Shown here: positions 22,306-52,422 of the stretch, piece by piece | How the letters are laid out: every line of letters begins with the position of its first letter | How positions within the stretch are numbered: the stretch's first letter is position 1 | NCBI GenBank assembly: GCA_015060115.1 | Contig: SUZB01000010.1 | Location: 1-64,000, forward strand | From: Rikenellaceae bacterium | GTDB taxonomy: Bacteria > Bacteroidota > Bacteroidia > Bacteroidales > Rikenellaceae | Reading direction: 5' to 3' | DNA length: 64,000 nt | Program-made: the position numbers and the translations under genes | Notes under the pieces: model-generated | What the model was told of the DNA's origin: nothing | The model's input: only the letters and a program-made list of their open reading frames with translations | Database searches by the model: none

Positions 22306-22776
22306 TTACTTCTTGATAGACAACTTAGCACCCTCACCATTAGTATTTACCTGAAGGCTAGCACCCTCAGTTACGGTGATATTAGATGCATCAACCTTCT
22401 TGCTACCAGCAACCTTAATGTTAGTCTTACCTACCTTAGAGTTTGGATCAATCTCCTTGATAGGCTCCTTGTTCACCTTAAACTGGCTCTCCTTCTTTTC
22501 ATCAGCCGAAATTGAAAGATTAGAAGAGTTGCTTACCTTAACATTTGACTCAACAGCCTCAACAACCTTCTCAGCAACCTCGGGCTTCTCAGCCTTCTCA
22601 GCCTTAACTGCAGGTGCTGCAGGTGCTGCGGGTGCTACAGGAGCTGCGGGTGCCTCCTCTACAACAACCTCCTCAACAGCTACATCCTCAGCCTCCTCAG
22701 CCTTGGGCTGCTCGCCACCGCAAGCAACCAACGACATTGCAGCAAACAATACTGCAAAAGCAAAAATCTTCTTCAT
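22306..22776 (-). CDS. Small low-complexity lipoprotein
   Basis: A 156-aa predicted lipoprotein (IFAFAVLFAAMSLVACG, Cys 19). The mature part starts with a Glu/Val/Ala/Pro-rich segment (EEVVVEEAPAAPVAPAAPAA), probably an extended linker. It then has a basic/Ser/Asn-rich region with repeated short beta-like motifs (SNVKVSNSSNLSI, KTNIKVAGSKKVDASNITV). I do not recognise a family. An envelope or peptidoglycan spacer role is possible but unproven. It ends directly at the MITE-like element. Confidence 0.7.
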   Translation of the reverse strand: MKKIFAFAVLFAAMSLVACGGEQPKAEEAEDVAVEEVVVEEAPAAPVAPAAPAAPAVKAEKAEKPEVAEKVVEAVESNVKVSNSSNLSISADEKKESQFKVNKEPIKEIDPNSKVGKTNIKVAGSKKVDASNITVTEGASLQVNTNGEGAKLSIKK

Positions 22777-24684: not shown

Positions 24685-25785
24685 TTAGATTTCGTCGATA
24701 TTGAGTCCCACAGAGTCGGTGTAGGTCTCCCACTTCTGCAATACGGCCTTCAAATCTTCGGGCAACTCCGATTCAAACTGCACATACTTGCCCGTTGTGG
24801 GGTGCTCAAAACCGAGAGCTCGAGCGTGCAACGACTGACGAGGGATAAGCTTGAAGCAGTTCTCGATAAACTGCTTATACTTCATAAATGTTGTACCCTT
24901 AAGGATGCGGTTGCCACCATATCTTTCGTCGTTAAACAAGGGGTGGCCCTGCCACGACATGTGCACACGAATCTGGTGCGTTCTACCCGTCTCCAAACGG
25001 CACTCCACAAGCGTAACATAGCCATAGCGGCGCAACACCTTGTAGTGGGTTACGGCGTGCTTGCCATCGGAGCCATCGGCAAAGACATACATCTGCAATC
25101 TATCCTTGGGGCTACGGCCGATATTTCCTGTAATAGTGCCCTCATCCTCGGCTATATTGCCCCATACGAGTGCCACATAGCGACGATAGATGGTATGGTC
25201 GAAGAACTGCTTGGCAAGCGAGGCGTGAGCCCTCTCGTTCTTGGCTACAACCAACAGTCCCGATGTATCCTTGTCGATACGATGCACCAATCCCGCACGG
25301 GCGTTGCCCTCGGAAAACATCGGCAGATTCTTAAGGTGGTACGACAAGGCGTGCACCAGCGTACCGCTATGGTTGCCCACGCCGGGATGAACGACCATAC
25401 CCGCCTCCTTGTTTACCACGATGATGTCGTCATCCTCGTAGACGATGTTAAGCGGGATATTCTCCGGCACAATCTCCTCCTTACGGCGGGGATAGGGCAA
25501 GACGATAGATATTTGGTCGAGGGGCTTAACCTTGTAGCTCGACTTCTGCGCCTTGCCATTTACAAGGATGTTTTGGCCATCGGCAGCCGCCTGAATACGG
25601 TTGCGCGAGGTGTGTTCAAGGCGTATTGTAAGATACTTATCGAGGCGCATCATCGACTGCCCCTTATCGACCGTTACGGCGAAGTGTTCGTACATCTCAT
25701 CGCCCTCGTCCGTAGTTTCCTGCTCCAGAAGGTCGATATCTTCGGTTAGGCGCTCGTCAAGCGTTGCGCTAATACTCTCTGTCAT
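24685..25785 (-). CDS. rluD: 23S rRNA pseudouridine synthase RluD family
   Basis: A 366-aa protein with an N-terminal S4 RNA-binding domain (MRLDKYLTIRLEHTSRNRIQAAADGQNILVNG) and a pseudouridine synthase catalytic domain. The catalytic motif HRIDKDTSGLLVVAK holds the essential Asp, and RRYVALVWG and GRTHQIRVHMSWQGHPL are further family motifs. RluD modifies helix 69 of 23S rRNA. It lies 22 bp downstream of the MqnE-PASTA gene; neighbouring PASTA and rluD genes are, as I recall, a usual Bacteroidetes arrangement. Confidence 0.93.
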   Translation of the reverse strand: MTESISATLDERLTEDIDLLEQETTDEGDEMYEHFAVTVDKGQSMMRLDKYLTIRLEHTSRNRIQAAADGQNILVNGKAQKSSYKVKPLDQISIVLPYPRRKEEIVPENIPLNIVYEDDDIIVVNKEAGMVVHPGVGNHSGTLVHALSYHLKNLPMFSEGNARAGLVHRIDKDTSGLLVVAKNERAHASLAKQFFDHTIYRRYVALVWGNIAEDEGTITGNIGRSPKDRLQMYVFADGSDGKHAVTHYKVLRRYGYVTLVECRLETGRTHQIRVHMSWQGHPLFNDERYGGNRILKGTTFMKYKQFIENCFKLIPRQSLHARALGFEHPTTGKYVQFESELPEDLKAVLQKWETYTDSVGLNIDEI

Positions 25786-25807: not shown

Positions 25808-28000
25808 TTACTCCTCGCTCGTTTCGGCCTCCTCCTTAGCCAACTGAGCCTCACGCTCGGCCTCCTCCTCACGGCGCTTCTTCTCATAAGTGCGAGCATC
25901 ACGGTCCGAAATCTTTGTTAGCGAGTCCACAAGCTCCATATCGCACGAAAGGTATAACGTTAGCTCCGAGCCACGCTGAGCTCCCGCATTGGGGTGCAGC
26001 GACTGCTTATATACCTTAGCCTCACGACGCTGCTTAAAGTCCGTAACCGTAGCGTCGTAGACTATCTCTTTGATGTTTAGACCACGATCCCACACCGTGC
26101 TCTTGGCCTGCGATAGGCGCATACCGACCAAGCGGGGAACTACGGTATACTGCTCATCACGGCGGTAGGTAACACCCAGCGTAACACCCGTAGCGTATGG
26201 CACCTTTGCCGCTGTCGAGGGCGATATCTCGCGACCCTCAATCGACTGACGCACAACATAGTCCGTAGAGGTGAGGTTAGGCTCATAGTTGAGCCTCTCG
26301 ACGCTCAATCCCGCACGCTCCAGCTGGTTGAGTGCCTGACGCAGTGTCTGCTTTGCAACATACGGAACATCGACCATACGGCGGTTGTAGGCGTTGATTG
26401 TAACATATATCTTACGGCCGGGCTTCACCGTTACGGTACGCTTTGTCGAGAGCTTGGGCAACTGGTCAACAACCACACCTCCTGCAACATCGGAGTCGAA
26501 TACCGAGTCTCGAACAACGATTTCGAGACCCTCACGCTTGGCGTGGGCACGGACATCATCGACCGACATACCGAGGTAGTTGGGCACAGCGATAGTATTG
26601 CCATGGCGTGTGCCAATCTTTAGTCCAATGTAGAGCGCAATGATAAGCGCAATGCCCACAAGGCCAATAAGTATTATGTGGCTTAAGATGTGGTGGCGCT
26701 CATAGAACGACTTGACACCCTCTTTTGCTTTTGCTTTAGTTTTCGCCATACTCTTATTCTCTTTCTCTTTATTTTCTCTCTTTGGCTGCTCAACTTTGGG
26801 TTGGGGTTTTGGCTCAGGTTGTGGCTTAGGCTCAACTTTGGGCTCAGGCTGAGGTTGTGGCTTAGGCTCAGGCGCCACAACCACGGGCTGAGGCTCTGCC
26901 TTAGGCAGTTCTGTACCCTTTTTCTCGCGAACCACTGCACGATAGTGCGTATCGCGCTCAATAGGAACAAAGCCGGCACCACGCACCAAATCCGCCAACT
27001 CCGCAACACTCATCGAGGGCTTCTCGTCAGCACCTGCCATCGAATAAATCTTCGTTGAGTCGTCAATCGTGCCATCAATGTCATCTGCACCAAATGCCAA
27101 CGCCATCTCGGTTGTGGGCTTGCCATACGCCACCCAGTACGCCTTGATATGCGGTATATTGTCGAGGAAGATTCTACTCATAGCAATCATTCGCATATCC
27201 TCCTCCACCGAGCACTCGCCAATCTCTGACATACGGTTGTTGCGGCTGCGATACTTCAACGGAATAAAGGCATCGAAGCCCGGCGCCTCGTCTTGCAAGC
27301 GGCGCAGACGATCGAGGTGGTCTACACGCTGCTCTATGGTCTCAATATGGCCGTAAAGCATTGTGCAGTTGGTAGGTATATCCATATTGTGGGCTGCACG
27401 ATGCACCGCCAACCACTCCTCCGAAGAGCACTTGTCGGGACATATCTTTGCACGCAACTCCTCATCGAAAATCTCGGCTCCACCACCCGGTATAGCCTCC
27501 ATACCCGCCTCCTTCAAACGGCGCAGACCCTCGACAATAGAGATGCCGGCACGGCGTATCATATATAGAATTTCGACTGCCGTATAGGCCTTAATCGCAA
27601 CATTGGGCAGAGCGCCCTTCACACGGCGAATCATTGCGCAGTAGGTCTCCAAGTCGTGCTTGGGGTGTACACCGCCTACGATATGCACCTCCGTAATATC
27701 GCTACCCTGCATCTCGCGGGCACGAGCCTCGACATCATCGAGTGACATAGTCCAAGCATCGGGGTCGCCCTCACGACGACGAAACGAGCAGAACTCACAG
27801 TTGAAGAGGCAGATATTCGAGGGCTCAAGGTGGATATTGCGGTTGTAGTATACCTCATCACCACTCGCCTGGCGCTTACGCTCCACTGCCAACTCGCCAA
27901 GCAACCACAATGGTGCCTCACGCCATAGCTTTATGGCATCGGTGGTCGTAAGGCGCTCGCCACGGCGCAACGAATCGGCTATTTGATTGATACTCATCAT
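25808..28000 (-). CDS. mqnE: Aminofutalosine synthase (MqnE) fused to a membrane PASTA-domain protein
   Basis: One uninterrupted 730-aa frame. Residues 1 to about 355 are a radical SAM aminofutalosine synthase: C-x3-C-x2-C at 64/68/71 (CLFNCEFC), VEGLRRLKEAGMEAIPGGGAEIFDEE, TMLYGHIETIEQRVDHL and PHIKAYWVAYGK. About 356-417 is a Pro/Lys/Glu/Gln linker. Met418 starts a natural-looking second protein (MAKTKAKAKEG) with a membrane segment (about 439-463, ILSHIILIGLVGIALIIALY), three PASTA repeats and a Glu/Lys-rich tail. MqnE makes aminofutalosine for menaquinone; PASTA proteins bind envelope muropeptides. Fusion by stop loss, or two products with an internal start at 26749, are both possible. 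Adjacent to rluD. Confidence 0.9.
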   Translation of the reverse strand: MMSINQIADSLRRGERLTTTDAIKLWREAPLWLLGELAVERKRQASGDEVYYNRNIHLEPSNICLFNCEFCSFRRREGDPDAWTMSLDDVEARAREMQGSDITEVHIVGGVHPKHDLETYCAMIRRVKGALPNVAIKAYTAVEILYMIRRAGISIVEGLRRLKEAGMEAIPGGGAEIFDEELRAKICPDKCSSEEWLAVHRAAHNMDIPTNCTMLYGHIETIEQRVDHLDRLRRLQDEAPGFDAFIPLKYRSRNNRMSEIGECSVEEDMRMIAMSRIFLDNIPHIKAYWVAYGKPTTEMALAFGADDIDGTIDDSTKIYSMAGADEKPSMSVAELADLVRGAGFVPIERDTHYRAVVREKKGTELPKAEPQPVVVAPEPKPQPQPEPKVEPKPQPEPKPQPKVEQPKRENKEKENKSMAKTKAKAKEGVKSFYERHHILSHIILIGLVGIALIIALYIGLKIGTRHGNTIAVPNYLGMSVDDVRAHAKREGLEIVVRDSVFDSDVAGGVVVDQLPKLSTKRTVTVKPGRKIYVTINAYNRRMVDVPYVAKQTLRQALNQLERAGLSVERLNYEPNLTSTDYVVRQSIEGREISPSTAAKVPYATGVTLGVTYRRDEQYTVVPRLVGMRLSQAKSTVWDRGLNIKEIVYDATVTDFKQRREAKVYKQSLHPNAGAQRGSELTLYLSCDMELVDSLTKISDRDARTYEKKRREEEAEREAQLAKEEAETSEE

Positions 28001-29109
28001 TATTTCGGGGCTTTAATATAGACAACGATAGCTATGATAGCAAAAATGAAGTTGGGTAGCCATACACCAAACCATGGCTCCATAGAGCCACTGATAGCAA
28101 TCTGCTCGAAGACACGGCCGAGCATAATATAGCTGAAACACAAGGCGATACCCAAGCCGATATGCATACCCAAACCACCACGCACCTTACGCGACGAGAG
28201 GGCAACGCCTATAAGCGTAAGGATAAAGGTCGAGAAGGGGTACGAATAGCGGCAGTGGCGCTCCACCTCGATAAGGTAGACATTATCAGAGCCCTTACGG
28301 CGCTGGTGGCCAAGGAAGTCGTTAAGCTCCTCGATAGTCATCGTCTTAACCAACGACTTAACCTCCGAGAGCTCACGGGCATCGAGGTTGATAAGCGTAT
28401 CGAGGTTGCGGTACTGCTTATAACCCAACGAGCCATCCTCGGTGCGCGAGTAGATAACATAGCGAGGCGCTGTCCAGCGACCTGTCTCCTCATCAAACGA
28501 GGCACTTGCAGCGTTCAGGGTCTCGACCATCTCCGAGCCTTCGTAGCGCTCCAATGCAAAGAATGGCACACGCTCGGTATTTGCCGAGTAGCCACGCACA
28601 TAGGCGAATGTGCCGGGCTCAATCTGGCGATATACATGGTCCTCGTACATCACCCTTCGGTTTGACTTAATATATTGACTCTCAAACTGGATGCTCACCT
28701 TCTGAGCCTCCGGGATAACCCATAGGCTAAGAGCTAAGCTACCGACAGCGATGATAAACGAGCCCATAAAATATGGCCACATCAGTCGTCTGAAACTTAC
28801 ACCACCCGACAAAATCGCCACAATCTCGGTCTGCATCGCCATCTTCGAGGTAAAGAAGATTACGGCAATAAATGTAAAGAGCGAGGAGAACTGGTTGATA
28901 AAGTAGGGGATAAAGTTCAGATAGTAGTCGAAGACAATAGCACGCCACGGCGCTTTAAGCTCCGTGAAGTCATCGACCTTCTCGACATAGTCGAAGACCA
29001 CGACAATGATGATAATCATCAGCAAGCCAAAGATATAGGTTAAGAGGAACTTGCTGAGGATATATCTGTCGATAGTTCTAAATCCCGGTATTGATAATCG
29101 TGTTTTCAA
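28000..29109 (-). CDS. LPS export permease, LptF/LptG (YjgP/YjgQ) family
   Basis: A 369-aa inner-membrane protein with the LptF/G layout: one group of N-terminal membrane segments (FLLTYIFGLLMIIIIVVVFDYVEKVDDF, FINQFSSLFTFIAVIFFTSKMA), a roughly 150-residue periplasmic beta-jellyroll-like region, and three C-terminal segments ending in VWLPNFIFAIIAIVVYIKAPK. LptF and LptG form the membrane part of the LptB2FG exporter that moves lipopolysaccharide toward the outer membrane. Which of the two paralogues this is cannot be told. Its stop overlaps the start of the mqnE fusion gene by 1 nt, so they are co-transcribed. Confidence 0.9.
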   Translation of the reverse strand: MKTRLSIPGFRTIDRYILSKFLLTYIFGLLMIIIIVVVFDYVEKVDDFTELKAPWRAIVFDYYLNFIPYFINQFSSLFTFIAVIFFTSKMAMQTEIVAILSGGVSFRRLMWPYFMGSFIIAVGSLALSLWVIPEAQKVSIQFESQYIKSNRRVMYEDHVYRQIEPGTFAYVRGYSANTERVPFFALERYEGSEMVETLNAASASFDEETGRWTAPRYVIYSRTEDGSLGYKQYRNLDTLINLDARELSEVKSLVKTMTIEELNDFLGHQRRKGSDNVYLIEVERHCRYSYPFSTFILTLIGVALSSRKVRGGLGMHIGLGIALCFSYIMLGRVFEQIAISGSMEPWFGVWLPNFIFAIIAIVVYIKAPK

Positions 29110-51651: not shown

Positions 51652-52422
51652 ATGGTTATCATTCCAAAAATAACAGCCGTATCGTATCTCAATACGATAC
51701 CCTTCGTCTATGGACTCAAGCACGCAGATAGCCTGCGAGCTGAGTTGCTATTGGCACCACCTGCCGACTGCGCACGCAACTACATAGAGGGCAAAGCCGA
51801 CATAGCCCTACTTCCCGCAGCCGTAGTTCCCCAGCTGAAAGATACCAACATCATTACCGACTACTGCATTGGTGCAGTGGGCGCAGTACGCACCGTAACG
51901 GTGATGTCGAATGAGCCAATATCGGCTATCAAGCGTATATGGCTCGACCCACACTCACGCACCTCGGTGCAGCTATGTGGCTATCTTGCTCAGCACAAGT
52001 GGCATATTGCGCCTGAGTGGCTTGCAATGACCGACTACAAGATTGTCGATACTCCGCAAGAGGGCGATGCCTACCTGCTTATTGGCGACAAGGTTTTTGG
52101 CTACGAAGGTCGCTTTAAGTATGTCTACGACTTAGCCGTTGAGTGGCGCGAGCTCACATCGCTACCCTTTGCCTTTGCTGTATGGGTGGCTCGCAAGGGC
52201 GTATCCTACGAGGTGATAGATGCCCTGCAACACGCGCTGACCTTTGGCGTGGAGCATATCTGGGAGGCTATCATGGAGCTTGGCTACACGGGCAACGATG
52301 GTGGCATCTCGGCCTACGAATATCTAACACGCAACATCGACTTTATCCTCGACGACGAGAAGCATAAGGCGCTTAAGAAGTTCTGGGACGCAGGACTCAA
52401 GGTAACGCCCCGATCCTATTAA
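51652..52422 (+). CDS. mqnA: Chorismate dehydratase MqnA (futalosine pathway)
   Basis: MqnA turns chorismate into 3-enolpyruvylbenzoate, the first step of the futalosine menaquinone route; MqnE, encoded in the fusion at 25.8-28.0 kb, acts next. The 256-aa periplasmic-binding-protein fold has the VSYLNTIPFVYGL N-terminus, ADIALLPAAVVPQL, a LDPHSRTSVQL segment and AYLLIGDKVF. Length fits the family. Single gene; a structured region separates it from corA. Confidence 0.92.
   Translation: MVIIPKITAVSYLNTIPFVYGLKHADSLRAELLLAPPADCARNYIEGKADIALLPAAVVPQLKDTNIITDYCIGAVGAVRTVTVMSNEPISAIKRIWLDPHSRTSVQLCGYLAQHKWHIAPEWLAMTDYKIVDTPQEGDAYLLIGDKVFGYEGRFKYVYDLAVEWRELTSLPFAFAVWVARKGVSYEVIDALQHALTFGVEHIWEAIMELGYTGNDGGISAYEYLTRNIDFILDDEKHKALKKFWDAGLKVTPRSY

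Follow-up and report, generated by a model that had tools for sequence, protein, structure and literature searches.

An mqnE-PASTA fusion gene in Alistipes that probably retains the translation start of its swallowed neighbour

We analyzed a stretch of 64,000 nucleotides from the genome of a Rikenellaceae bacterium (contig SUZB01000010.1, positions 1 to 64,000; hereafter, the window), in which one open frame on the minus strand (25808..28000) joins the aminofutalosine synthase MqnE to a single-pass membrane protein carrying PASTA domains. The same architecture is present in 38 species. We consider it quite probable, from the sequence features described below, that this is a nested gene with two products, namely an 82-kDa membrane-tethered MqnE-PASTA protein and a 35-kDa PASTA protein. 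Taken separately, synthesis of the full-length protein seems close to certain, and synthesis of the internal product is very likely.

According to the mechanism that we propose, mqnE in ancestral Alistipes would have been followed immediately by a gene encoding a PASTA protein with a single membrane span. In one lineage, the stop codon of mqnE would have been lost in frame and the junction would have grown into a disordered linker, within which the promoterless second gene would have retained its own start. The same mRNA, read from the mqnE start, would give the 82-kDa protein, in which MqnE lies on the cytoplasmic side, a flexible leash leads to the inner-membrane helix, and the PASTA domains are outside. 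Read from the internal ATG, it would give an ordinary 35-kDa PASTA protein of the kind found in relatives.

Architecture of the fused gene

The fused gene encodes 730 amino acids (82.4 kDa); all features of the gene and both of its neighbours described here lie on the minus strand. Its ATG overlaps by one base the TAA stop (TAATG) of an upstream permease-like gene (28000..29109; LptF/G-like by appearance), and downstream there is a gene for what appears to be an RluD-like pseudouridine synthase (24685..25785). The MqnE module comprises residues 7-356 (26933..27982), to which the profile search aligned TIGR03700 over the full model (1-351 of 351), and it also matches Radical_SAM and CofH_C. The TIGR03700 score was 433.4 bits in the protein scan, marginally below the cut-off of 434.55, and 435.6 bits in the DNA search, above the cut-off. 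The CxxxCxxC motif for the 4Fe-4S cluster is intact as CLFNCEFC (residues 64-71, 27788..27811), and its cysteines C64, C68, and C71 are invariant across 33 fused proteins. The closest solved structure to the module is aminodeoxyfutalosine synthase (6xi9/6xig, E 2.7e-111).

The linker (residues 357-439, 26684..26932) is free of stops, has a pN/pS below 1, and is predicted to be disordered from both model confidence and composition (16 Pro, 12 Lys, and 11 Glu in 60 residues), being Pro/Lys/Glu-rich ahead of Met418 and Lys-rich behind it. It leads into a predicted transmembrane helix at approximately residues 437-464 (26609..26692; hydropathy peak 2.7). Three PASTA repeats follow, all above the Pfam cut-off for PF03793, at 26393..26590 (40.7 bits), 26219..26374 (26.2 bits), and 25946..26143 (29 bits), and the model ends in a charged C-terminal helix (residues 688-729, 25814..25939). 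The AlphaFold2 model, for which 33 fused proteins served as input, consists of two well-folded modules and one membrane helix (437-464), with a disordered region at 361-433 (pLDDT of about 30-40). The ATG of Met418 (26747..26749) would initiate the predicted second product, a PASTA protein alone of 313 aa and 35.2 kDa (25808..26749), which is the counterpart of the separate gene of relatives. An earlier sequence-only reading of this DNA had described a complete MqnE, a Pro/Lys/Glu linker, and a PASTA protein in a single frame, and had placed a natural-looking start at Met418; the profile matches bear out the former, and the codon lies where it was claimed.

We also searched the window for other Pro/Lys/Glu-linked open reading frames. 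The only other one of such low complexity is predicted to encode a small lipoprotein that contains a stretch rich in Ala, Pro, and Glu (22306-22776, minus strand), and there was no sign of a general habit within the window.

Distribution and history of the fusion

In the genus set of 180 Alistipes species, a strong MqnE match is present in about 114 (our own count from the genus-wide match table). The other species, about 66 in number, have at best a PASTA protein or a weaker match, and most have PASTA only. MqnC-type matches apparently go with mqnE, and the futalosine pathway would seem to be patchy within this one genus. In two genomes without mqnE (G023 and G032), the PASTA proteins occupy frames of approximately 400 codons and match from query residue 384-386, possibly as a relic of the linker after loss of mqnE.

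We read the junction in 87 records, corresponding to 85 genomes. The two genes are fused in frame in 38 of these genomes; in the other 47, mqnE ends in a stop and a separate PASTA gene is found just downstream, in any frame. For about 29 further mqnE-bearing species, the matches end with MqnE according to the genus-wide table. The earlier reading had pointed to this junction in relatives; not all of them have separate genes. The named records among the relatives are metagenome-assembled genomes (MAGs) of Alistipes and Rikenellaceae, mostly from the ruminant hindgut, with one from an isolate (A61_54.AF.DSS); the fused genomes identified by name are all MAGs.

In the listed matches, which come from 393 genomes of the order, no MqnE frame other than that of the window (734 codons) is longer than 470 codons, which rules out the fusion as a trait of the whole order. 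Several individual candidates were also rejected. The genes are separated by a stop in two genomes with long open frames (G030 and G058), and they are likewise separate, with a stop, in the cultured Rikenella microfusus (L185) and in a Rikenella from rabbit (L180). In two Rikenella MAGs (L182 and L183), the PASTA gene is located upstream of mqnE on the opposite strand instead of behind it, and the neighbourhood appears to be rearranged in this genus.

A tree was built from MqnE plus the PASTA domains, with the linker left out. In this tree, a fully supported clade unites 37 fused genes with three separate ones (L113, L114, and L115, from G139, G095, and G017). Synonymous change is saturated over its 37 fused species, and the tree rules out a private stop-loss of the window's strain. 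The outgroups have separate adjacent genes, and the 37 fused genes fall in one supported clade, as for a fusion of adjacent genes. The sequence-only reading had suggested a stop-loss event giving two products. Its origin from neighbouring mqnE and PASTA genes stands, and two products are well supported, with Met418 bearing the marks of a conserved internal start; a recent event is not what we find, however, as the fusion is old, is shared by 38 species, and has a linker under protein-level selection.

The three separate genes were placed inside the fused clade by a careful tree, and a grouping of the fused genes without them was rejected (AU p 3.5e-6). One fusion with one later fission is the simplest account of the clade; several fusions without any fission are also compatible with the tree but require a larger number of events. 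The split mqnE genes end in SRSE, SRNE, or CRREADEQ..., their fused sisters read HRSE..., and the ancestral form is NEI-stop. These ends, being unlike the ancestral one, fit a broken linker, and stops have accumulated between the end of MqnE and the start of PASTA. The genus thereby offers a natural series from separate to fused to split again, and it shows how a gene can swallow its downstream neighbour without loss of that neighbour's own start.

The 38th fused gene (L065/L186; G163, isolate HAN008) falls among the separate genes on a long branch and probably represents a second, independent fusion. Its linker has only five codons ahead of the Met (NEIEPGNGM...), and the arrangement resembles an early stage of the process in the main clade.

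Selection on the linker and conservation of its internal ATG

The 38 linkers contain no in-frame stop in 3,897 codons, where base composition predicts about 180; their other two frames contain 145 and 332 stops. When the window is compared with its two closest species, the linker ahead of Met418 shows a pN/pS of 0.24-0.32, versus 0.03-0.05 in MqnE, and all linker indels are multiples of three. More diverged pairs gave a linker pN/pS of 0.38-0.77 and a few gaps that are not multiples of three, in alignments that are poor. The absence of stops, the low pN/pS, and the in-frame indels together argue that the linker is translated. Its composition ranges from Pro/Lys/Glu in the window to Ala/Thr in L064; it is openness and disorder, not sequence, that have been retained.

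These data bear on the possibility of a neutral stop-loss, in which the cell makes both products and tolerates the long one as a by-product, while tethering of MqnE has no effect. We give this reading a little less than an even chance. The two origins by simple stop-loss (the main clade and L065/G163) and the one reversal (L113-L115) suggest a low cost either way, and linker sequence and length vary widely, the internal ATG being preceded by 5 to 145 linker codons. On the other hand, the fusion has been kept over 37 species despite saturated synonymous change, and the linkers, none of which has acquired a stop, grew instead of decaying.

An in-frame ATG is present in the linkers of all 38 fused genes, most commonly some 43 codons upstream of the membrane helix, while the background rate of Met (1.1% per codon) predicts that 24 of the linkers would have one. 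We scored all in-frame ATGs with a start profile built only from the 47 starts of separate PASTA genes. The linker ATG ranks first among the 13-29 in-frame ATGs of its gene in 31 of the 38 cases and is not first in the remaining seven; in the window, Met418 scores highest among 19 in-frame ATGs. Directly ahead of Met418 lies an A-rich putative internal translation initiation region (aataaagagaaagagaataagagt, 26750..26773), marked by its start-profile score and, for these regions as a class, by low RNA structure.

The codon preceding the internal ATG ends in T rather than C at a ratio of 29:1, versus 834:746 elsewhere in the linkers (p 2e-7), and the separate PASTA genes likewise have T at position -1 (0.67). 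Since GAT, AGT, and ACT are synonymous with GAC, AGC, and ACC, the T bias points to a signal in the RNA and not in the protein. The RNA around the internal ATG is predicted to be nearly unstructured, with a median folding energy of -1.45 versus -9.8 kcal/mol for the remaining in-frame ATGs. Where a linker has more than one ATG, we picked the start with a score that favours A-rich sequence, and the tests of A content and folding are biased for those linkers; the linkers with a single ATG and the -1 position are free of this bias. In the 15 single-ATG linkers, the T:C ratio is 13:0 (p 3e-4), the A content is 0.49 versus 0.31, and the folding energy is -1.4 versus -8.0 kcal/mol. The 38 species share ancestry, and all these p-values therefore overstate independence and are upper bounds on the strength of the evidence. 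Still, linker turnover is so great that shared ancestry alone would not be expected to keep one codon.

These features agree with what has been described for the phylum. In Bacteroidetes, where there are no Shine-Dalgarno sequences, A-rich leaders drive initiation, and ribosome profiling in Flavobacterium found no Shine-Dalgarno sequence, low structure, and A at positions -3, -6, and -12/-13 (PMC6847099). Together, they show that the internal ATG is conserved along with its initiation context. The linkers would supply many independent examples of what a start site needs in Bacteroidota (A-rich, unstructured, T at -1), under the further limit of having to encode protein, in a phylum without Shine-Dalgarno sequences.

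It is accordingly unlikely that only the 82-kDa fusion is made and that the linker Met is a relic or a chance residue without function. The linkers are long and do hold other Met codons, and the seven ATGs that are not best by the start profile would suit such an account, but the ATG is retained in every fused gene although the rest of the linker residues vary, and it is preceded by the synonymous T bias and the A-rich unstructured leader. Somewhat less likely still is that only two separate proteins exist, with ribosomes seldom passing the linker or the protein always being cut there; disordered linkers are protease-sensitive, yet the pN/pS below 1 and the in-frame indels mean that the protein sequence of the linker matters to some degree. 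Finally, a fusion found in 38 species is no chance event, nor does it stem from an assembly or sequencing error at 26750-26950, the probability of which is negligible: the genome of the window is fragmented (32 contigs), but 38 independent assemblies have the same open junction and the nearest two species are 94-95% identical over the full length.

Predicted products and related systems

If one nested gene does give two products, gene callers would list a single protein for a locus from which the cell obtains two, and an otherwise soluble enzyme of quinone synthesis would be located on the membrane in these gut bacteria. We infer the topology, with MqnE inside and the PASTA domains outside, and the membrane tether proposed by the sequence-only reading follows from it. 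The two earlier ideas, a tether and two products, fit together. That tethering is adaptive is possible, though we lean against it, and a neutral fusion that is tolerated has about the same likelihood as a useful tether. Roles such as bringing MqnE near the membrane-bound steps that come later in menaquinone synthesis, or placing it under the control of the wall, are conjectural. We consider it improbable that the free PASTA protein forms assemblies with the tethered MqnE-PASTA protein or competes with it, whereby menaquinone synthesis would be kept at the growing wall or adjusted by it. If true, futalosine-pathway catalysis and a PASTA wall sensor would here be physically linked for the first time. 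The earlier premise that quinone-synthesis catalysis is not known to be tied to cell-wall sensing stands, in that our literature search found no paper naming both MqnE and PASTA; the search returned nothing useful on the PASTA proteins of Bacteroidetes.

The arrangement of a cytoplasmic enzyme, one membrane helix, and extracytoplasmic PASTA repeats is also that of the PASTA Ser/Thr kinases (NF033483). However, no Pfam kinase domain was matched in the fused protein, and only its PASTA half aligns to NF033483, at 86.7 bits versus a cut-off of 450, which rules out membership in this family. The helix and three PASTA domains instead resemble the single-pass membrane PASTA protein of Bacteroidales, which adjoins mqnE in Alistipes with separate genes; the fusion differs from it by the cytoplasmic enzyme at its N-terminus, and it has neither a kinase nor a transpeptidase domain.

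Fusion of neighbouring genes and in-frame genes within genes are both known kinds. Examples of the latter are RpnL/RpnS of the Rpn system (PMC10327210) and archaeal Cas11b (PMC11899642), where one frame gives a long product and a separately initiated C-terminal product, as is predicted here from sequence. In contrast to those cases, the nested unit here once stood as a gene of its own, was captured by the fusion, and was released again in one subclade. To our knowledge, an MqnE-PASTA fusion in which the swallowed gene keeps its start, the linker can evolve freely, and one subclade has reversed the joining is undescribed; the lack of a paper naming both terms is weak evidence for this.

With MqnE itself (TIGR03700; 6xi9/6xig), the fused protein shares the full-length match, the intact Fe-S motif, and a genome that carries other early families of the futalosine pathway; it differs by the attached membrane PASTA protein, and the other MqnE frames listed from the order reach at most 470 codons. 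The fused MqnE is probably active, since its residues are strongly constrained and it is the only MqnE-grade gene of a genome that also has an MqnC-type gene (on contig C32) and two MqnA/MqnD-family genes (PF02621). An MqnA/MqnD-family gene is located in the same window (51667-52389, plus strand; 138.5 bits), and another is found on contig C18.
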